A stretch of DNA of 64,000 nucleotides, taken from the NCBI GenBank assembly GCA_017537025.1, contig JAFWCB010000001.1, forward strand, positions 83,198-147,197, in the 5' to 3' direction. This document shows positions 3,851-41,938 of this stretch, in pieces. The notes beneath the pieces are model-generated. The model worked only from the letters and a program-made list of their open reading frames with translations. It was not told where the DNA came from and made no database searches. Origin of the DNA: Sediminibacterium sp. Lineage in GTDB: Bacteria > Bacteroidota > Bacteroidia > Chitinophagales > Chitinophagaceae. Both the position numbers and the translations under genes were made by a program. Position 1 is the first letter of the stretch; each line of letters opens with the position of its first letter.

Positions 3851-4816
3851 ATGTGGCAACTTCCGGCATACGATATGGCAAGGCTTTCTCCTTTTATTCA
3901 AAGAATAGCCGAAAAGAAACAAGCTTTAGATGCGCTAAGGCCACTTCCCGCTAGCGTGCTTTCTCGCATTGAGGAAACGATTGCTGTAGAATGGACTTAC
4001 AATAGCAATGCTATTGAGGGCAATACTATTACCCATAATGAAACCAAATTAGTGGTTGAACTCGGGATCACTGTCGGAGGAAAATCCTTACGGGAACATC
4101 TTGAGATACATAATCATCAAAAAGCTATTCAATATGTATACGGTTTAGTTAGCCAAAAAAACAGTTTACGGGCTATCGACATCCTAAAGCTGCACGAAAT
4201 TGTAATGCGCAACATAGATGATGATTTTGCAGGAAGAATAAGAAATGCTGGCGTTCGTATAAGCGGTGCTAATTTTATACCCCCTGCAGCTTATAAAGCC
4301 TCTCTACTACTAGATGAATTAGTGGCTATTTCCCAAACCGAATTTAGCAACAGCCATCCGATTCTATTTGCAGCCTGGTTTCACCATCGTTTTGTATGGA
4401 TACATCCTTTCTTTGATGGTAATGGCCGAACAGTTAGGCTGCTCATGAATCTATTACTTATGCGAGCAGGCTACCCGCCAGCTATCATTTTGAAAAATGA
4501 TCGCAAAAAATATTATGATGCACTCAATGCGGCCAATAATGGTAAGTACAATAAACTATACTTGCTCTTGCTACAAGCAGTAGAAAGAAGTTTGAATATT
4601 TACTTGCAGGGTGCACCGGGTTATGCTATAGAAGAGGAATACCGGATTATTTCCAACTTAGTAGAGGAAACACAAATGCCTTACAGCGCAGAATATGTAA
4701 GCCTCTTGGCGAGGCAGGGTAAAATAGATGCATACAAAGAGGGCCGAAACTGGCTCACCACCAAATCAGCTGTAGAGCATTATATGGAATTAAGAAGAAG
4801 GAAAAGAAAGGTGTAA
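3851..4816 (+). CDS. Fic family protein with N-terminal inhibitory motif and C-terminal HTH-like domain
   Basis: Fic proteins transfer AMP (or another nucleotide moiety) from a nucleotide to hydroxyl side chains of target proteins. The 321-residue product has the catalytic core HPFFDGNGR at residues 185-193 with all consensus residues intact. The helix motif S-x-x-x-E-G at residues 52-57 (SNAIEGN) matches the inhibitory motif of class II Fic proteins, whose inhibitory helix lies N-terminal to the Fic core in the same polypeptide. Residues about 275-315 (SAEYVSLLARQGKIDAYKEG followed by RNWL) resemble an excisionase/MerR-type helix-turn-helix. It stands alone on the plus strand between rpsJ and an operon facing it. 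No separate antitoxin gene is present, consistent with self-inhibition. Target is unknown. Confidence 0.9.
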   Translation: MWQLPAYDMARLSPFIQRIAEKKQALDALRPLPASVLSRIEETIAVEWTYNSNAIEGNTITHNETKLVVELGITVGGKSLREHLEIHNHQKAIQYVYGLVSQKNSLRAIDILKLHEIVMRNIDDDFAGRIRNAGVRISGANFIPPAAYKASLLLDELVAISQTEFSNSHPILFAAWFHHRFVWIHPFFDGNGRTVRLLMNLLLMRAGYPPAIILKNDRKKYYDALNAANNGKYNKLYLLLLQAVERSLNIYLQGAPGYAIEEEYRIISNLVEETQMPYSAEYVSLLARQGKIDAYKEGRNWLTTKSAVEHYMELRRRKRKV

Positions 4817-4847
4817 TGGGGAGGTTGAGGGTATATAAGTTATCGGG

Positions 4848-5714
4848 TTATTTTCCTAAATGGAAAATGCGTGAGAGATTAAACCCAAATCTGATATCAC
4901 CTTTCAAAAATGAATCAGTGGTTTGTGTGAGATAAGCTCTTTCATTCATACCCACTGCATTTGAAAAATGAAGTTGAAAAACATGCCCTCCGGTTTCAAT
5001 ATCTAAGCCCACTGAAAGTGGATCTTTGGCATCTGTTGCAATTCCACCTAACGGATGATGATAATCGATTGTGAAAGCACAGCGTTTATTGAACTTGTAT
5101 CTTGCTCCCCCTCCTAATGCAAAAATAGTTTGCGACTCTCCCGGGTTCTCAATCATTCCTTTTTGCAATAAAATAGGACTTAGTTGCAAGGAGAAATTCC
5201 GATTAAATTTTCTGCCGGCAATAACTTGAACATAATAAGCAGATCTTTCAGAAAACCCCGGCTTTACTGTGGCAAAGGATTCTTCAGTCCAAACCGAAGC
5301 TCCTGCCACAAGTAAAACCGTCAGGGGATTATTTATTCCTCCGCTTCTCTGTTGTATTAAACGTGTTTTAATAAATCCGTCGATCTCTTTTCTAAAGGTA
5401 CTTCTTCCAATTCCCACCATCAGATTATTGCTAATGCCATAATCGAATCCTAAACGCATGCTGGCAATATCTAATCCGTAGAATTGATTAATCCCAAGAT
5501 TGACCCTGCCAAAACGGTGTAGGATTCTAACATCCAAATTATTTTTACCTAACATCTCTAAGGAGTGTGCATTTATTACTCTTGTTGATTTGAAAGCGCC
5601 TGTAATTTTTTCCGTTCTACCGGAATCTTTTTCAAGGTTGGCCAATAAAGATTCCTGACCTAACAAAGGGAGCGAGAAAAGTATAAGAGTCGATACAGAT
5701 ACTATTATTTTCAT
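4848..5714 (-). CDS. DUF5777 family beta-barrel protein
   Basis: A 288-residue predicted outer-membrane protein. The start was set at MKIIVSVSTLILFSLPLLGQ, which gives a clean signal peptide; nine upstream residues of the longer frame are not signal-like. The body alternates short beta strands (for example RILHRFGRVNLGINQFYGLD, SMRLGFDYGISNNLMVGIGR) and ends with an aromatic strand, as expected for a barrel. DUF5777 genes commonly lie beside YceI and cytochrome c genes in Bacteroidota, as here, with a 4-base gap to the YceI gene. Its biochemical role is unknown. Confidence 0.8.
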   Translation of the reverse strand: MKIIVSVSTLILFSLPLLGQESLLANLEKDSGRTEKITGAFKSTRVINAHSLEMLGKNNLDVRILHRFGRVNLGINQFYGLDIASMRLGFDYGISNNLMVGIGRSTFRKEIDGFIKTRLIQQRSGGINNPLTVLLVAGASVWTEESFATVKPGFSERSAYYVQVIAGRKFNRNFSLQLSPILLQKGMIENPGESQTIFALGGGARYKFNKRCAFTIDYHHPLGGIATDAKDPLSVGLDIETGGHVFQLHFSNAVGMNERAYLTQTTDSFLKGDIRFGFNLSRIFHLGK

Positions 5715-5718
5715 ATTA

Positions 5719-6270
5719 CTATATTTTCCTGAGTGCCGCAATTTGAATATTTACTTTTATGTCTTTCGCTATTTTATTAGTTAGTATAGAAGGTACTTGA
5801 ATATTATAGTCTGCCGGATTTATCACAAAACTTGTTTGAGCCCCCAATCCACCTGCTTTCACGGTAAATAGAATGTCTACTTGTACTGTTTTAGTTATCC
5901 CGTGTAACGTAATGCTTCCCGTAGCCGATTCTTGTACAGTTCCTTCTTTTACAAAAAGACTGGCATCATGTTTATTTAAACTTCCATTAAAAACAGCACG
6001 TGGAAATTTATCACTCTCCATATAGTTCTCATTAAAATGCTCTTGCATTACAGCATTTTTAAATTTGAAATCTTTAATCAGTAAGGAAAACGCTACTTGT
6101 CCATTCGTTACATCAACAACAGCAACACCGGTATATAAATGTGCTTCAATATTTTCAAGTGGAGTTTGTGAGTAAAACGAAACACCGGCTTCCCTAGAGA
6201 AGAAACGATTTTGCTGAGCATGCACAAAAACCGAGAGGCATAGCAATAAACCTGCAAGACTTATTTTCAT
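5719..6270 (-). CDS. YceI family periplasmic lipid-binding-like protein
   Basis: YceI proteins are periplasmic lipocalin-like barrels that bind long isoprenoid-type molecules. The 183-residue product has a signal peptide (MKISLAGLLLCLSVFVHAQQ) and the family pattern: FNENYMESDKFPRAVFNGSL in the middle and GSITLHGITKTVQVDILFTV towards the end. It lies second in a three-gene operon after the cytochrome c lipoprotein (7-base gap), suggesting a role in a periplasmic quinone or electron-transfer process. That role is inferred from context. Confidence 0.88.
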   Translation of the reverse strand: MKISLAGLLLCLSVFVHAQQNRFFSREAGVSFYSQTPLENIEAHLYTGVAVVDVTNGQVAFSLLIKDFKFKNAVMQEHFNENYMESDKFPRAVFNGSLNKHDASLFVKEGTVQESATGSITLHGITKTVQVDILFTVKAGGLGAQTSFVINPADYNIQVPSILTNKIAKDIKVNIQIAALRKI

Positions 6271-34966: not shown

Positions 34967-37450
34967 ATGCTAAATAAATATACACGCAATCTGAGTCTCT
35001 TCGTATTACTCTTTACTGCCATCTGCACAGATGCTCAATACCAGTACTTAGGGGGATTCAATAATCAGGGCTACCCTTCTTATTTGGTTACACCCCGCGA
35101 CACAGTTAGTGTATCATTTCGAAATAAAATTGCGGCCACCCTACCGGAATCGAGATCTGTTCCGGTATATAATCCTTTGTTAGTAGCGGATGCCAGAACA
35201 GAAACCATACAGGTAAATTGCAATTCTGATGTATGGATTTCTTTTGTAGATGAAGGGGCTTCTTTTTTAAATGCGCTCGGTTACTATACTTTTAGTTTAG
35301 ACACACCATTAACCGCTGCGCCTAATCCGAACAAAATAAAAATCATTTTCCCGAACGCATCAAAATCCGGTTCTGGTGGTGCTTTTGAACCGGGAGATAA
35401 AGTATACCTAGGGAATTTTCCTGCAAGAACTGGAATTGGATTTGTACTAATGGCCGATGGATGGAATGGAACCGTTGTTACACCTGGCAGATGGACGCTT
35501 TATTCAAATGCTGCATTCAATCCAGAATCGGATTCTACTTTGAAAAAACATACTGTAATTCTCAAAGACACAGTTAATAATCGGCTTGTGATAGGTTTTG
35601 AGGATATTCGAAGAGACAATCCGGCATGTGATAATGATTTTAATGATGTACTATTTTTTGCTACTGTTTCTCCCGTTAATTGTGTAAATAAATTAGATAG
35701 TATCCCCATTCTTACAGATGATGGCCATATTGCCTTTTCAGGAAATACGGGCGGCTTGGAGAGTAAAGGATTAGGTGATAAAATAGCAAAGCGTGTTTTT
35801 AATAAAGCAAAAGCAGGCCTAAATGGAGATATTGATTATAAAAATTTCAAATTAGTATCTGCAGAAAATGGGAACATCCGATCCAACAGTGTTTCAGGTG
35901 GATTACAACTTTCTGCAATTATGCCAACTCAGATTTTAGATCAAGGTTATACAGCTTATATAACTACGCCAACAGATATACCAAGTATTACTAACGCGAA
36001 AGAGGTAAGGTCTATCGACTTTGTTCAATCTGGTATTTGTAAAGCTGTGGCTTTTGCAACAAAAACATTGGGCGTAATGTATGATCATACCAAGCCCATT
36101 TGTGATAGATTAAAAGGCGCCTCCTTATTGGCTATGGATAATTTCAACCTGAAAGGGTTGAATTTTGTTCGATATACCTTGCAACAAGAAGCCGGTAATA
36201 TTGAATATGCCATGAGTTTTACCATCGGTAAGAAGGCAGGGCGGAACAGTTTCTCCTTCCAATCAAACTGGCTAAATAAAGATTATGTTACAGAAGATAC
36301 CCTCATTAATTATCAGGTTTGGGGAATCGCTCCCTATTTGTGTGTAGACATGACATTGGATATTCTGGATAAATTGAATGTTATGATGCCGGTTACTCAA
36401 AATACACCCAGCGCTGTTTTACCAAAAACATATATTATAAACGGAAACAGAAATGGATCTGTACTCAGTATGACGATTGCCAATGAAACGAATGCCACTA
36501 GCGGGTATTTTGAAGTAGAAGAAAGAGCCACTGAAATCGCCTCTTCAAAAACAGTAAGAATTGTACCATTTAGCATGAAGAGTTCAGCTAAAACAGCGGT
36601 TTCCTTTCCAATGTCAGACGCTTTTGAAAGTAATATCGCAATGTATGTTGGAGGTAAATTACAAGATGTAGTGTATATGAGTGACGGAACATGGGCTTTA
36701 GACTTTGATAGTACTAAAACCATCATTAAAAATTATAGTGTAACAAATGACTCGGCAAGGCTTCCGGCAGATGAATACCCCGTTTTCAGAAATATCCAGG
36801 TAACTGCTAATACGAATGATTATGTAACAGCATACAAAGTATTGAGAGGTGCAGGGGCCCTTCAAAACCTTAGTGATTATAAAACAATTAGTTTCAAAGC
36901 AAAAGCTAACGGCAATCTGCGTATTACATTAGTAAAAAATAGTATCACGGATTTTGCTAAACAATACAAAATATTGGTTCCTATTAGTACAGAATTAAAA
37001 TCCTATGCGATAAGTTTAAGTGATTTTATATCGGCTGGAAATAACCAACCAATTAATGCGAACGATATTACAACTATTGTTTTCTCCTTTGAAGCTACAG
37101 GTGGTGTGCAAACCACTATCGATGCAACTATTTCTTCCGTTGCTTTCTCAAAAAAGAGCAAGGAGTTTCTTTCGAATCTCCTAGAGCAACAATTACATGT
37201 ATATCCGAATCCGGTAAGGAGCGGAGGAACTGCCTATGCTGCTTTTAAGAGTACAGAAAATACTAATGTAACCGTGAAATTAATTGAAACAGCAACCGGT
37301 AAAATTGTACAAACGCAACAAGCCAATGCGATTAAAGGAGACAACATGATCCCTATTAAACTTGGCAAGTTGGCTACTCCTACGTTGATCTCCGTAGTAG
37401 TGGAAGGTTCGGGAATTAAGCTAAAGCCGGCTAAAATAATTACAAATTAA
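34967..37450 (+). CDS. T9SS protein with DUF4114-like domain and shared C-terminal module
   Basis: The 827-residue product has a signal peptide (SLFVLLFTAICTDAQYQY), a DUF4114-like calcium-type domain near residues 60-235 with the acidic motif CDNDFNDVLFFATV, and, from residue 262 (GGLESKGLGDKIAKRV), a module of about 566 residues. This module is clearly homologous, over its full length, to residues 830-1394 of the protein at 42240-46424. It includes the identical blocks [14 protein letters not shown] and QSNWLNKDY. The protein ends with a sorting domain (HVYPNPVRSGGTAYAAFK). It probably acts at the cell surface. Its stop overlaps the convergent response regulator by 11 bases. Confidence 0.85.
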   Translation: MLNKYTRNLSLFVLLFTAICTDAQYQYLGGFNNQGYPSYLVTPRDTVSVSFRNKIAATLPESRSVPVYNPLLVADARTETIQVNCNSDVWISFVDEGASFLNALGYYTFSLDTPLTAAPNPNKIKIIFPNASKSGSGGAFEPGDKVYLGNFPARTGIGFVLMADGWNGTVVTPGRWTLYSNAAFNPESDSTLKKHTVILKDTVNNRLVIGFEDIRRDNPACDNDFNDVLFFATVSPVNCVNKLDSIPILTDDGHIAFSGNTGGLESKGLGDKIAKRVFNKAKAGLNGDIDYKNFKLVSAENGNIRSNSVSGGLQLSAIMPTQILDQGYTAYITTPTDIPSITNAKEVRSIDFVQSGICKAVAFATKTLGVMYDHTKPICDRLKGASLLAMDNFNLKGLNFVRYTLQQEAGNIEYAMSFTIGKKAGRNSFSFQSNWLNKDYVTEDTLINYQVWGIAPYLCVDMTLDILDKLNVMMPVTQNTPSAVLPKTYIINGNRNGSVLSMTIANETNATSGYFEVEERATEIASSKTVRIVPFSMKSSAKTAVSFPMSDAFESNIAMYVGGKLQDVVYMSDGTWALDFDSTKTIIKNYSVTNDSARLPADEYPVFRNIQVTANTNDYVTAYKVLRGAGALQNLSDYKTISFKAKANGNLRITLVKNSITDFAKQYKILVPISTELKSYAISLSDFISAGNNQPINANDITTIVFSFEATGGVQTTIDATISSVAFSKKSKEFLSNLLEQQLHVYPNPVRSGGTAYAAFKSTENTNVTVKLIETATGKIVQTQQANAIKGDNMIPIKLGKLATPTLISVVVEGSGIKLKPAKIITN

Positions 37451-38078
37451 ACTCGATCATAAACTTAACCAAAGCAGCAGGTGAATTGAGTTTAAGTTTT
37501 TGCATGATATTCTTACGATGCGTTTCTACTGTGTAAATACTCAAATGTAGTTTTTCGGCTATTTGCTGATTTGTATAGGTTTGTTTCAGGTACAAAAGAA
37601 TTTCTTTTTCTCTTTTTGTGAGATCATATTTTCGCAGGAAAGCATCTAATTTTTTAAATGCATCATCATAATTTATTTCCTTTTGTACACTAAAATAAGA
37701 TTTCCCGGAATATACCTCCATAATGGCATGATGGAGTTCTGCTTTACTGCTACTTTTTAAAATATATCCATCGGCTCCTGCTGATTTGGCTTCTTGTACA
37801 ACCTTCTCATCACTATAGGCCGAAAGCATCAATACTTTCACAGCACCAAAAGATTGCTTGATATATTTGATTGTTTCCAGCCCATTCAAATTGGGCATAT
37901 TTACGTCTAATAAAATCAAATCGGTAGGCACATGTTGTGTTAGCAAATACAAAAGCTGCTTACCATCGTTTGCAATACCACTAATATTAAATTTCTCTTC
38001 TCCCCCGAGAATCATTTTCATCCCCTCCACAAATAGCGGATGATCGTCGGCAATCATTAAATTAATTTTTACATCCAT
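37440..38078 (-). CDS. LuxR/NarL-type response regulator (orphan)
   Basis: The start was set at MDVKINLMIADDHPLFVEGM (212 residues), a standard receiver start; the longer frame adds 19 unrelated residues. The receiver domain shows the acidic pair ADDH, the phospho-acceptor Asp in LILLDVNMPNL, Ser in MLSAYSD and Lys in GYILKSSS. The C-terminal HTH is LTKREKEILLYLKQTYTNQQ followed by IAEKLHLSIYTVETHRKNIM. No histidine kinase gene is nearby. It lies 22 bases after the amine-oxidase-like gene on the same strand, so it may be the last gene of that operon. Confidence 0.93.
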   Translation of the reverse strand: MDVKINLMIADDHPLFVEGMKMILGGEEKFNISGIANDGKQLLYLLTQHVPTDLILLDVNMPNLNGLETIKYIKQSFGAVKVLMLSAYSDEKVVQEAKSAGADGYILKSSSKAELHHAIMEVYSGKSYFSVQKEINYDDAFKKLDAFLRKYDLTKREKEILLYLKQTYTNQQIAEKLHLSIYTVETHRKNIMQKLKLNSPAALVKFMIEFNL

Positions 38079-38100
38079 AGTCTTGTCGCCTAAATATACA

Positions 38101-39864
38101 TTATTTATGAAAAGGAACAAATAATGGCCCGGCAAAGCAGGGGTATGTTTTTACCTTATATTGCCCGTTTTCGTAATAGGTCTCAGCCCAACAGTATTTA
38201 GACGAGGGGGTATCATCATTTTTTAACTGAGGAACATACCATAAAATTAAGTCAGTATTTCGAATATTTTCCTTTATGGGTATCATGAATTTTTCAGGCC
38301 CTTGTTGATAATCAGTATTACAACACGGACCAATGGTTACCAAATCGTTTTGTCCTTCGTTTTTGTCCAAATGATTCTTTGTTACGTATACATATGCATT
38401 ATCGCCTCTACCGCCGTCACCAAATTGCCCTCTACCCGGTTCGATAAAATAACCACCATTAGGGCTGGTATTGAGTTTATATTGATACCCTTCTTTCGTA
38501 TACACAGTTGTAGCGTCTTGTAGTTTCCATCCCTCTTTATCCCAAACTTTCCATTCATCTTTATTCCATTCGGCAAAAAGTTGATTATTACCTGAAAAAC
38601 CAATGCGAAAAACCGGCCTATAAGTACCGTTATTCCCACAGCCTCTCCCAATAGAAGCGCAGCTCATTCGAAATCGACCATCGGTATAAAAAAAATAACG
38701 CTGAGAATAACTGTAATTACAAGGTCCCGGCCATAGTTCACTGAAAAATTTTTGCTCTAACATAAAGCCTGCAACCGTATCCGCTTCAATAATGTCGGCC
38801 ACCTGTGGTGGCTCAGTTGCTACCACTGCGGCTTCACTAAAAATCGGACAGCCTACGGCGTCGCTGTATCCAAAACCATCTGTTCCGGAATAACTTACAT
38901 GCCAATCTACCAATTTTGCACTGTTGATAACCTGTTGATTCTTATACTTTACATTACTGATCATTAACCCATCAGAAGAAGTGAGTAAGTAATCCATCTC
39001 CCAGCCTTTTTGTGAAAGGGTATTTACTTTATTACAGTAACAATCAGCAATATTTTCATTTTGAATTTTCCGCTCCGTTACAACTGGTTGTTCCAGCTCT
39101 TTACTGGTGTTAGTCCAACGTAAGCCAACTACCCTAAAATCGGTTAGATCAACGATAGCCCACAATGCTCGATTGCCTTGCACGAAGGTGGGTGCTACAC
39201 ACAAATGTTGTGAGCGTTCGCAGCGGGTTCGATTCAAGGCGGTTTTAGTAGAAGCCATTACAGGTAAAGATGCTGAGGGTTTAAATCCTAATGCTTTTGT
39301 TACTTCAGGTGCATCAACTGCAATTTGCACGGCTAGTTTTATTAGCGAGGGAGGCAAATCGGGTTGTGTTTGAGGAAAATGATCAACCGATAATATTTTT
39401 TGCGAGAAAATGTCTACTACAGCCACTGTTGTGAGGTTGTAGGCGTAGTTATACATTTCTACTCGCATGGCCATACCGGGTAGTACCGTCATTCCTTTTC
39501 GAATATCACCGGGCCGGGCAGGATATACACCAAAGATCTCATTCCAAAGAGGCTTCCCGGTTGCTTTATCAAAAATATATCGGGTAAAAAAAGTATCAGC
39601 AATAGCTACTTGTTGCGCCACTGCAATCTTTTCATCAAGCCTATCAATAAAAAATTTGATAGGCATCGAAAGGTTAAGCACAGAGTCTTTTTCTAATTTT
39701 CTTTTAATAATATACTTCGCGGTATCAACAGTAGTTTCTTTAAGCAGGTTTTTACGATATTCATTTACATACACCGCATCCTGAGAAGTTTTATGCTGTG
39801 AAAAAACCTGCACGCCTATTAAAAAGCAATAGCTCAACAATACTATTTTATGAAACATCTTCAT
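38101..39864 (-). CDS. Secreted protein with apparent copper amine oxidase fold, copper ligands not recognisable
   Basis: The 587-residue product has a signal peptide (VLLSYCFLIGVQVFSQ). By eye it follows the copper amine oxidase (CuAO) core. A D3-like segment ends ALWAIVDLTDFRVVGLRW (residues 233-250), then WEMDYLLTSSDGLMISNVKY (288-307) and WHVSYSG (321-327), then the topaquinone-region pattern NYSYSQRYFFYTDGRF (383-398). In true CuAOs this is N-Y-D/E-Y, the first Tyr becoming topaquinone; here Tyr384 is kept but D/E is Ser385. The usual His-x-His copper pair is replaced by TYRPVFRIGFS (414-424), and no third ligand was found. The predicted mature part has 12 Cys. The fold call is an inference. 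The gene overlaps the di-heme gene by four bases. Confidence 0.6.
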   Translation of the reverse strand: MKMFHKIVLLSYCFLIGVQVFSQHKTSQDAVYVNEYRKNLLKETTVDTAKYIIKRKLEKDSVLNLSMPIKFFIDRLDEKIAVAQQVAIADTFFTRYIFDKATGKPLWNEIFGVYPARPGDIRKGMTVLPGMAMRVEMYNYAYNLTTVAVVDIFSQKILSVDHFPQTQPDLPPSLIKLAVQIAVDAPEVTKALGFKPSASLPVMASTKTALNRTRCERSQHLCVAPTFVQGNRALWAIVDLTDFRVVGLRWTNTSKELEQPVVTERKIQNENIADCYCNKVNTLSQKGWEMDYLLTSSDGLMISNVKYKNQQVINSAKLVDWHVSYSGTDGFGYSDAVGCPIFSEAAVVATEPPQVADIIEADTVAGFMLEQKFFSELWPGPCNYSYSQRYFFYTDGRFRMSCASIGRGCGNNGTYRPVFRIGFSGNNQLFAEWNKDEWKVWDKEGWKLQDATTVYTKEGYQYKLNTSPNGGYFIEPGRGQFGDGGRGDNAYVYVTKNHLDKNEGQNDLVTIGPCCNTDYQQGPEKFMIPIKENIRNTDLILWYVPQLKNDDTPSSKYCWAETYYENGQYKVKTYPCFAGPLFVPFHK

Positions 39865-40958
39865 TTGTTTAAAGCTACAAAAAGTAGTTTTTTATTTTTT
39901 AAATACCCGGTGTCCGTTAAACAATTTAAAAAAGATATTAGATTTTCTTTTTCTTCTTTACTTATACTGAACCCCTTGATTAATTTACTTTTATAAGGGT
40001 TTTGGGAACCGTCGCCAATATGCTCTCCAACTTCAATCTTGCGTCCACCCCTTGCGTAAATATCAATCATTTCGGTTACAGTAGATACACTTCCATCATG
40101 TGTATAAGGTGCAGTTAATAGTACATTTCGTAAAGATGGGACACGAAACTTACCTTTATCAAAATCATTCTTAGTGATTTCATAAAGCCCCTGATCTGAA
40201 CGAGGATAATCCCCAGTCATATCAAGATTATACAACCCTGTATTCTCAAATCGGGATGGTATCAACTTATTTTTAGGGTCCCATACATGACAGGTTCCGC
40301 AATTTAATTTCCTAGAGAAAAATAATCTCATACCGGCTTTTTCATCAGCCGTTAATATAGATTCATTACCCTCCAAATAGGCATCATACCTTGATGCATG
40401 AGATACAATAGTTTTCTCAAATGCAGTTATTGCATAAAAAATATTTTTAATTGAAATAGGCGTTTTATGTTTCGGAAAAACAGTATTAAACAAAGCCACA
40501 TAGCCGGGTATATTTTTTATCCTTGCACCAACGGCTTGTTCATTTTCCCAACCTAATTCTTTTGGATGTTGATTGAAGAAAGGGAAAAATAACTGCCTAT
40601 CAAAACGATGAATACCGCTATCACCCCATGTAAAACTGCCCCTGTACCGTACATTTAGAAGGGAGGGTGTATTTCTTCTTACCGCATAGCCATCTGCTCC
40701 AACAGCCGTTCTGTATCCGTCTGAAAAAGCCAATGAAGGATCATGACAAGAAGCGCAGGATTTGGTTTGATTATAAGATAAACGAGTGTCGTAAAATAAA
40801 TATCTACCTAACAATGACAATTCCTCACTTGGTTTAGTAAGTTTTTTTTCTGTAGAGGGATAGATATACGATATGAAAAAAAAACTAAGAAAAAGTATGG
40901 CAGTAAGTAAATATTTTTTTTTCACAAACAGCTTTATTGCAGATCTATTAATTGCCAT
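39861..40958 (-). CDS. Di-heme cytochrome c peroxidase / MauG family protein
   Basis: Two c-type heme motifs are present: CASCH at residues 68-72 and CGTCH at 220-224, counted from the ATG at 40956-40958. The start MAINRSAIKLFVKK gives a positive N-terminus and an export signal (YLLTAILFLSFFFISYIY); another ATG seven codons upstream is possible. Family blocks seen are GRYLFYDTRLSYNQTKSCAS, RRNTPSLLNVRYRGSFTWGD, and KFRVPSLRNVLLTAPYTHDG. Members reduce peroxide or, as with MauG, oxidise residues of a partner protein to build a cofactor. It overlaps both neighbours in a tightly coupled operon with the amine-oxidase-like gene downstream. Confidence 0.9.
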   Translation of the reverse strand: MAINRSAIKLFVKKKYLLTAILFLSFFFISYIYPSTEKKLTKPSEELSLLGRYLFYDTRLSYNQTKSCASCHDPSLAFSDGYRTAVGADGYAVRRNTPSLLNVRYRGSFTWGDSGIHRFDRQLFFPFFNQHPKELGWENEQAVGARIKNIPGYVALFNTVFPKHKTPISIKNIFYAITAFEKTIVSHASRYDAYLEGNESILTADEKAGMRLFFSRKLNCGTCHVWDPKNKLIPSRFENTGLYNLDMTGDYPRSDQGLYEITKNDFDKGKFRVPSLRNVLLTAPYTHDGSVSTVTEMIDIYARGGRKIEVGEHIGDGSQNPYKSKLIKGFSISKEEKENLISFLNCLTDTGYLKNKKLLFVALNK

Positions 40959-41938
40959 TTCTTGCTGGCGTAATTCCATTGGAACTTATATTGTGTTTCG
41001 GGTTTTTCGCTGGATGCTTGTAAGTTAAAATTAAATGCGATCCCGTTTACAATCATGGTATTATTTTGAAATCGAATTTTTCTGGCCTTATCATCTCCCC
41101 TGGGACCAATCCCTACTAAGCTGAGCTCTTTTCGAAGGGATGACTTTACAAATTTATTTTTTGAATTAACCGCAACAGAATAAATATCTCCGGTTCTCGC
41201 TTTTCCAAAATATACTCTTTTATTACCTAACTCATCAAGTGCCAATGTTAGTCCGATGGCATCAATACCTACCAAGGAATCTGATTTTCTTTTCGTATCT
41301 GCATGAATGATATAAATAATGCCGGCTTCTTTTTGTCTATTTGATGCAGCAACGGTGGCACAGTATAGGTAATGAGCTATACAATCATAGGCAATCCCTA
41401 ATAAACCATAGGGGTTCTCTAGACTTGTTTTTTTGTTCGGTAGGATGGCTAACCAAGGCTGCATGTCACCTGTAAGATTTTTTATTCGGTATACTGTGTT
41501 GAGCTTTTCGATTGGGTTATTAAGCATAGAAATAAAAGGAGAAGGAATCACATATGCATTTCCAAATTTGTCGAAACATATAGCCGATAAATATCCGGCG
41601 CTTCTCCAACTGGGATGTTGATATACTGTTTCTCTGGGTCCGTTAGGTAAAGGAGAACTAATACCATCAACTTTCTTATAAGCGATTAATACCGCACCCA
41701 TTTTTTGTTTTTCAGAAGTACTGAGGGCTGTCCATAAGGGATCAAAACCCAGGGTTTGGATAAATGCCGGAGGTTGATTACAGGGTTTTATCTCTTGTTG
41801 TGCTATCGAAGACATTCCCAAAAAGAGAAAAAAACCGATAATTGGGATACCCAGAAGTTGGGTTTTTCCAAAAAAAAGACAGAATGTGGGTATTTTTTTT
41901 AAAAAAAATAATTTCAAACTTATTATATTGATTTTCAA
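40934..41938 (-). CDS. Secreted propeller-like protein, first gene of the di-heme/amine-oxidase-like operon
   Basis: The 334-residue product has a long N-terminus with a hydrophobic export segment (LGIPIIGFFLFLGMSSIAQQ). The body has spaced strand motifs of the kind seen in beta-propellers (SAICFDKFGNAYVIPSPFIS, GLLGIAYDCIAHYLYCATVA, GLTLALDELGNKRVYFGKAR). I infer an NHL/SMP-30-like fold but am not certain. It overlaps the following di-heme gene by at least 25 bases, so these genes are made together. No enzymatic residues can be assigned. Confidence 0.65.
   Translation of the reverse strand: MKINIISLKLFFLKKIPTFCLFFGKTQLLGIPIIGFFLFLGMSSIAQQEIKPCNQPPAFIQTLGFDPLWTALSTSEKQKMGAVLIAYKKVDGISSPLPNGPRETVYQHPSWRSAGYLSAICFDKFGNAYVIPSPFISMLNNPIEKLNTVYRIKNLTGDMQPWLAILPNKKTSLENPYGLLGIAYDCIAHYLYCATVAASNRQKEAGIIYIIHADTKRKSDSLVGIDAIGLTLALDELGNKRVYFGKARTGDIYSVAVNSKNKFVKSSLRKELSLVGIGPRGDDKARKIRFQNNTMIVNGIAFNFNLQASSEKPETQYKFQWNYASKKWQLIDLQ

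Follow-up and report, generated by a model that had tools for sequence, protein, structure and literature searches.

A copper-ligand-less relative of copper amine oxidases encoded beside di-heme MauG/MbnH-type proteins

We analysed a 64,000-nucleotide stretch of a Sediminibacterium sp. genome (assembly GCA_017537025.1, contig JAFWCB010000001.1, forward-strand positions 83,198 to 147,197); 'the window' refers to this entire stretch and not to the feature under study. It carries a cluster of genes encoding a propeller-like protein, a di-heme protein of the MauG/MbnH type, a secreted protein resembling copper amine oxidases (CAOs), which we term CAO-like, and a response regulator. Sequence comparisons suggest that the cluster provides a copper-free means of making or running an amine-oxidase-type enzyme. 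On the best reading of these comparisons, the CAO-like protein would be a copper-independent redox enzyme, with a cofactor made by, or electrons passed to, heme partners.

An amine oxidase relative without copper ligands

By profile comparison the CAO-like protein is a distant yet clear homologue of copper amine oxidases. The Pfam Cu_amine_oxid model covered residues 281-329 only and, at 26 bits, stayed just below its cut-off of 27, and a search of solved structures with the single sequence returned no relevant match. A family profile of 39 rows aligned with a single true CAO belonging to the same bacterial family (hhalign P 78.6, E 1.7e-5), and a 37-row profile aligned with eight amine oxidases over 453 columns (P 98.8, E 1.2e-16), so that the match to the CAO structural family expected by the initial annotation was borne out at the profile level. 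The latter alignment spans CAO-like residues 76-546 and residues 130-716 of the Escherichia coli precursor at 18% identity. It sets the NYSY motif, found in the translation at residues 383-386 as first reported, on NYDY 495-498 of the precursor, and pairs Tyr325 with Tyr399, Asp335 with Asp413, Asn383 with Asn495 and Tyr384 with Tyr496. Subtracting 30 from these E. coli numbers gives those of the chain (757-residue precursor, 727-residue chain), in which we take Tyr369, Asp383 and Asn465/Tyr466 to be the active-site residues. One of the eight amine oxidases, a Leisingera plasmid protein annotated as hypothetical (L228, 165-2081), has HDH and no N-Y-D/E-Y, a mirror-image loss, and was excluded from the seven true CAOs used elsewhere.

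Conservation was assessed in 66 sequences from Bacteroidota and Chloroflexota (39 + 19 + 8, window included; L221 stands for L213, the same gene), which share a minimum identity of 19% and a median of 39%. Invariance is limited to 25 of 587 columns; at 10 of them, Tyr325, Tyr384, Tyr386 and Arg420 included, it extends to the seven true CAOs. Asp335, Cys382, Cys409, Tyr415, Trp438 and Cys558 are likewise present in 66/66, as are the four residues just named; the expectation that Tyr384 would be conserved among homologues was thus confirmed. Asp335 falls on the E. coli catalytic Asp according to hhalign, and in the MAFFT alignment the E. coli base stands opposite a gap. Twelve of the 13 cysteines lie outside the signal peptide, in agreement with the 12 counted earlier in the mature protein.

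The copper ligands, in contrast, are missing throughout. CAOs have the consensus T-X-X-N-Y-D/E and three strictly conserved copper histidines (PMC3382800, in part). This consensus is absent here, as the window protein has Gly380 where Thr is expected and Asp/Glu follows the tyrosine in 0/66. In the 140 residues that follow the motif no family sequence has HxH, and the third copper His is found in 0/66 compared with 7/7 true CAOs. The initial annotation had proposed that TYRPVFR (residues 414-420) replaces the His-x-His pair. The absence of His at this point holds in all three alignments; the exact column match is uncertain, with Tyr415 set on the second His by the 39-row hhalign alignment and HxH left in a gap by the 37-row hhalign and MAFFT alignments. 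No His is invariant; His322 is present in 57/66 and His220 in 38/39. The lack of copper His, combined with invariant Tyr384, Tyr386, Tyr325 and Asp335, marks a copper-ligand-less branch, which from sequence is apparently under purifying selection: dN/dS (the ratio of non-synonymous to synonymous substitution rates) against locus L011 was 0.049 for the CAO-like gene, 0.115 for the di-heme, 0.102 for the propeller and 0.020 for the regulator gene. In a tree, 43 copper-less rows were separated from the seven true CAOs by a 100/100 branch. Since the copper-less rows all lie on one side, a single loss of copper suffices, the tree being unrooted.

CAO-like relatives occur in 7/60 near genomes, with 15 loci in a scan of genome contigs, in 5/395 genomes of the phylum, in 22/396 of the order and in 25/199 of the class of a Chloroflexota relative, including a cytochrome-fused branch. 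L085 and L087, which duplicate L015 and L017, were excluded, as were identical proteins; the 66-sequence and neighbourhood counts leave aside relatives in G003, G011, G021 and G023, the weak match of G849 and the second copy present in each of four Chloroflexota genomes. The copies in two same-genus drafts (G023 and G003; L005, L007-L010), beside a regulator gene, seem broken by internal stops, and assembly error is possible.

The cytochrome-fused branch comprises eight Chloroflexota proteins of 718-748 residues in which the CAO-like domain is joined to a C-terminal CXXCH (L221 is cut by the contig end). These have the motif CxCCYRYE and no HxH near it. Three of these eight were scanned with Pfam Cytochrom_C and scored 23.5, 22.3 and 19.1 bits (cut-off 21.3). 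No other CXXCH open reading frame (ORF) was present among the listed ORFs of at least 110 residues in four fused-protein neighbourhoods. At L199 the CAO-like gene is preceded by a gene (4718-5791) whose product has three CXXCH motifs and matches Cytochrom_C in three stretches.

Linkage to di-heme proteins

The closest curated model for the di-heme protein is the NCBIfam MbnH family (TIGR04039), at 354.3 bits, 8.5 below the cut-off of 362.85; the MauG model TIGR03791 gave 157.6 bits, far from its cut-off of 443.85. The best solved relative is 6e1c ('Di-heme enzyme'; E 2.5e-74), which we take to be MbnH. The protein combines two CXXCH motifs with a Tyr in the distal-ligand column, which is Tyr in MauG as well. 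This combination is MbnH-like, and Tyr is frequent at this position in generic relatives too. At L015-L019, L021, L086 and L110 the di-heme protein has only 302-310 residues, two stretches past the second CXXCH being gone; both CXXCH and the ligand-column Tyr are kept.

Pfam and NCBIfam scans revealed no gene for the partner MbnP beside the window di-heme gene, the neighbours being propeller-like and CAO-like. The genome has a single MbnP-like match, a weak one (22.3 bits against a cut-off of 140) located on contig C23 beside a second di-heme match (L109, 532830-534481), which falls outside the CAO-linked clade described below. The possibility that the window gene is an ordinary MbnP-partner gene was therefore rejected, there being no adjacent MbnP and the tree separating L109.

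Neighbourhoods were counted at 57 loci (36 Bacteroidota, 21 Chloroflexota) over a distance of 3 kb, excluding the eight cytochrome-fused proteins. A di-heme gene lies within this distance of the CAO-like gene at 28/36 Bacteroidota and 6/21 Chloroflexota loci, which are lower bounds, since L020 opens within the CAO-like gene itself and several of the Chloroflexota contigs stop nearby. Gene orders vary, with propeller-diheme-CAO, diheme-CAO-propeller, CAO-propeller-diheme and opposite-strand tail-to-tail pairs all represented. At L096 (5860-12372, G758) the arrangement is a double copy, CAO-propeller-diheme-CAO-propeller, and a second di-heme gene of the same clade lies elsewhere in that genome. 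Leaving L020 aside, adjacency is absent at seven Bacteroidota loci (on one side of L097 and L102 little flanking sequence is available). Five non-adjacent Bacteroidota genomes (G478, G517, G551, G612 and G690) carry a di-heme orthologue elsewhere; these scored 302-410 bits compared with 171-245 for seven generic di-heme proteins, using a family hidden Markov model built without those genomes and without L107, L108, L109 and four Met-type rows. No CAO-like or propeller gene was found in the stretches around the five unlinked orthologues. In the Anaerolineales genomes of L023 and L024 only generic di-heme genes are present, elsewhere in the genome.

Within the order sample, members of the CAO-linked di-heme clade scoring at least 279 bits occur in 15/396 genomes, and 15/15 are among the 22 that are CAO-like-positive (hypergeometric 3e-22, kinship ignored); the next score, 272 bits, came from a genome without a CAO-like gene. 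Because the di-heme model had been trained on CAO-like genomes, a tree was made as a check. Here the CAO-linked clade (30 rows, support 100/98) consists of 24 adjacent and six unlinked genes of CAO-like genomes and holds 0/14 rows from the best-scoring genomes without a CAO-like gene. The short di-heme protein of G744 (L093) lies inside it on a long branch. In the other six CAO-like genomes of the order, an adjacent Met-type di-heme protein is encoded in G512, G532, G718 and G790 and none in G658 and G680.

The partners fall into four parts of the di-heme tree, with pairings outside the main clade at L098, L099, L100 and L103 (Met in the distal column), at L199 and L201 (His) and at L207-L210 (Tyr), the last two groups being from Chloroflexota. 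Given these separate paired groups, the tree indicates that di-heme partners have been swapped or recruited more than once, the exact number being uncertain. Chance adjacency was rejected in view of the 28/36 Bacteroidota loci, the several gene orders and the four parts of the tree. On this genomic evidence the link between CAO-like and di-heme genes is real though not universal; the co-occurrence that the initial annotation had asked for goes beyond chance in Bacteroidota, as judged by the loci, the clade scores and the tree.

Possible functions of the CAO-like and di-heme pair

The explanation that we regard as best, with about as much doubt as confidence, is that a copper-free redox enzyme of the CAO fold acts together with a propeller-like partner and a di-heme enzyme that oxidises a CAO-like side chain to a cofactor. 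With peroxide or an equivalent oxidant, the di-heme enzyme would oxidise a side chain of the secreted CAO-like protein, most likely Tyr384, and would yield a protein-derived cofactor, quinone-like or cross-linked, that is otherwise made by copper. In the absence of copper, a dehydrogenase passing electrons to a cytochrome would be likelier than an oxidase, and such wiring fits the cytochrome-c-fused branch. The propeller-like protein may be a structural or docking subunit, a role that the propeller subunit has in methylamine dehydrogenase. A broader proposal, which we advance tentatively as possible rather than probable, is that a whole amine oxidase branch became copper-free by recruiting di-heme MauG/MbnH-type enzymes that convert Tyr384, possibly with Cys382 or Tyr415, to a cofactor of quinone or cross-linked type; the enzymes so formed would be cytochrome-wired dehydrogenases, with one branch fused to cytochrome c.

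Several observations weigh against cofactor formation by the di-heme protein. Within the motif, Asn383 is kept in 55/66 sequences and replaced in 11/66, and the acidic residue directly after the cofactor Tyr is lost in all. No di-heme gene lies within 3 kb at 15/21 Chloroflexota and 8/36 Bacteroidota loci. The scores of the di-heme model (A2) are partly circular, as it was built from CAO-like genomes. The distal-ligand column of the 30-row clade is Tyr in 24, Phe in four (L025, L104-L106) and a gap in two (L093, L139); it is Met at L098, L099, L100 and L103 and His at L199/L201. Nor is the Tyr distinctive, since 14/14 rows from genomes without a CAO-like gene have it. Finally, joins among some di-heme groups are weak (81/32), which leaves the number of independent pairings uncertain.

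Some of these points would be accommodated if the di-heme protein were a redox partner, either an electron acceptor or a peroxide remover, with the cofactor self-formed or made by other means, an account that we consider doubtful overall. The Met-type, classical-peroxidase-like proteins paired at four Bacteroidota loci and the eight Chloroflexota proteins in which a cytochrome c motif follows the CAO-like domain match it at least as well as they match maturation, and the three-CXXCH protein at L199 and the 15/21 Chloroflexota loci lacking a nearby di-heme gene also favour it. Against this, the main partner clade is nearest to MbnH among curated models (354.3 bits; 6e1c), and the MbnH family modifies partner proteins. 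Both roles may hold, in different lineages. For MopE/SACCP, modification is called possible in an excerpt of PMC3621798.

The MbnH-like score would also suit conversion of a partner Trp to kynurenine, or a Trp cross-link, in the manner of MbnP/MopE, with a metal site or other cofactor and with Tyr384 serving only the fold. Trp288, Trp378, Trp438 and Trp542 are each found in 66/66, and the Trp438 column is Trp in just 1/7 true CAOs. This route is nevertheless unlikely: there is no adjacent MbnP-like gene, a MopE-type copper site consists of two His and a kynurenine (PMC3423442, in part) whereas no His is invariant here, and the fold alone hardly explains the joint retention of Tyr325, Tyr384 and Tyr386. 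More unlikely still is the alternative raised by the initial annotation, that the protein is a non-catalytic relic or a binding protein on an old amine oxidase scaffold. The loss of the copper ligands and of the Asp/Glu after the Tyr, and the seemingly broken same-genus copies, would fit such decay, yet across two phyla, with identities as low as 19%, the active-site tyrosines do not vary, heme proteins recur as neighbours or fusion partners, and the dN/dS of 0.049 against L011 disfavours a relic.

Gene layout, further neighbours and known systems

The coordinates of the features are collected in the table. As first described, the four genes from the propeller to the regulator are tightly packed on one strand, the propeller and di-heme genes overlapping by 25 bases (using the 40958 start; the longest version of the di-heme ORF begins at 40979) and the di-heme and CAO-like genes by 4, with a gap of 22 bases before the response regulator. 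The nearest named locus is from a Flavihumibacter metagenome-assembled genome (MAG), with a CAO-like protein 94% identical, followed by Sediminibacterium MAGs.

Table. Features of the CAO-like locus in the window
Feature	Position	Strand	Basis or remark
DUF4114 surface protein, 827 aa	34967..37450	+	neighbour conserved only within own family
NarL/LuxR-type response regulator	37440..38078	-	ORF, domain matches
Copper-less amine-oxidase-like (CAO-like) secreted protein, 587 aa	38101..39864	-	ORF, profile alignments
Asn549, column of third copper His	38218..38220	-	N 48, T 15, S 2, I 1 (n=66)
Vicinal Cys514-Cys515, family-specific	38320..38325	-	57/66, gap in 9
Tyr415, invariant, at or beside lost HxH copper pair	38620..38622	-	alignments
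NYSY, residues 383-386, Tyr384 at topaquinone position	38707..38718	-	hhalign; Tyr384, Tyr386 66/66
Asp335, candidate catalytic base (E. coli precursor Asp413)	38860..38862	-	hhalign; 66/66
Tyr325 = E. coli precursor Tyr399, quinone-hydrogen-bonding active-site Tyr	38890..38892	-	66/66; 7/7 true CAOs
Di-heme MauG/MbnH-type protein, 365 aa, hydrophobic N-terminus	39861..40958	-	Pfam CCP_MauG 145.3 bits
Tyr301, distal-heme-ligand column	40056..40058	-	alignment; Tyr in 6e1c, Met in peroxidases
Second heme motif CGTCH, residues 220-224	40287..40301	-	sequence motif
First heme motif CASCH, residues 68-72	40743..40757	-	sequence motif
Propeller-like secreted protein, 334 aa	40934..41938	-	ORF
SdrD_B-type surface protein, 1394 aa	42240..46424	+	Por_Secre_tail 23.9 bits (cut-off 27); conserved neighbour

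The propeller-like protein and its relatives have no Pfam match, and the window protein gave a weak match to the YncE propeller (16.7 bits, cut-off 400). Relatives lie within 3 kb at 30/36 Bacteroidota and 10/21 Chloroflexota loci, again as lower bounds. The response regulator was rejected as a core component, being adjacent in closer relatives only, a local addition. The two flanking surface proteins have about 565 C-terminal residues in common (43% identity). In the order sample this region occurs in 7/7 CAO-like genomes of family f1 and in 0/15 CAO-like genomes outside it, and 28/35 genomes that have it carry no CAO-like gene; this distribution led us to reject the surface proteins as core. 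Among the 15 own-genus genomes of the sample, the region is present in 6/6 with a CAO-like gene and in 0/9 without. Since it tracks the CAO-like gene within the genus, the surface proteins may be clients or anchors in their own family.

Comparison with characterised systems sets the locus apart from each. With copper amine oxidases (PF01179; E. coli TynA) the CAO-like protein shares about 450 homologous columns, N-Y-x-Y, the hydrogen-bonding Tyr and, in the profile though not the MAFFT alignment, an Asp at the column of the catalytic base; it differs in lacking copper His and the acidic residue after the Tyr, in having an invariant Cys two residues ahead of the cofactor Tyr and in its heme-protein partners. 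As the copper ligands were tested and are absent from the sequence, it is by definition not a copper amine oxidase. MbnH/SACCP/CorB (TIGR04039) provides the closest curated model and solved chain for the di-heme protein, with the same two CXXCH and distal-column Tyr, whereas the score falls under the cut-off and the neighbour is CAO-like rather than MbnP. In the MauG/methylamine dehydrogenase system, the quinoprotein has a tryptophan tryptophylquinone (TTQ) cofactor and a propeller subunit. In the window locus, similarly, the di-heme gene has genes for a propeller-like protein and for a putative quinoprotein as neighbours, and by analogy the system perhaps works like MauG and its quinoprotein; here, however, TIGR03791 is far below cut-off and the CAO-like protein takes the place of the Trp-Trp subunit.

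In the mtoX operon (mtoX, SCO1/senC, mauG) a MauG-like gene stands beside that for methanethiol oxidase, for which TTQ has been proposed (PMC5739008, in part). That operon-like arrangement with a secreted redox enzyme resembles ours; as described there, methanethiol oxidase is a copper enzyme of the SBP56 family with an SCO1 gene, which sets it apart. The main text of a network paper on CCP_MauG (PMC6405878) does not contain the terms 'amine oxidase' or 'MbnH', and plant members without the N-Y-D motif, noted in an excerpt of an amine oxidase tree paper (PMC12058724), represent a different loss. Among the papers listed, our literature search found no description of a CAO-like/di-heme system, an earlier mention in the main MbnH papers being still possible. 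Topaquinone arises within the enzyme itself, at an active site whose metal, as a rule copper, is held by His (PMC3382800, in part). Cofactor formation by the di-heme protein, if true, would mean that a Tyr-derived cofactor can arise in a second way, without copper. The MauG family acts on Trp, and the CAO-like protein would then be a new substrate for it. For a family of di-heme proteins yet to be characterised, the CAO-like protein offers a definite partner that experiments can test.

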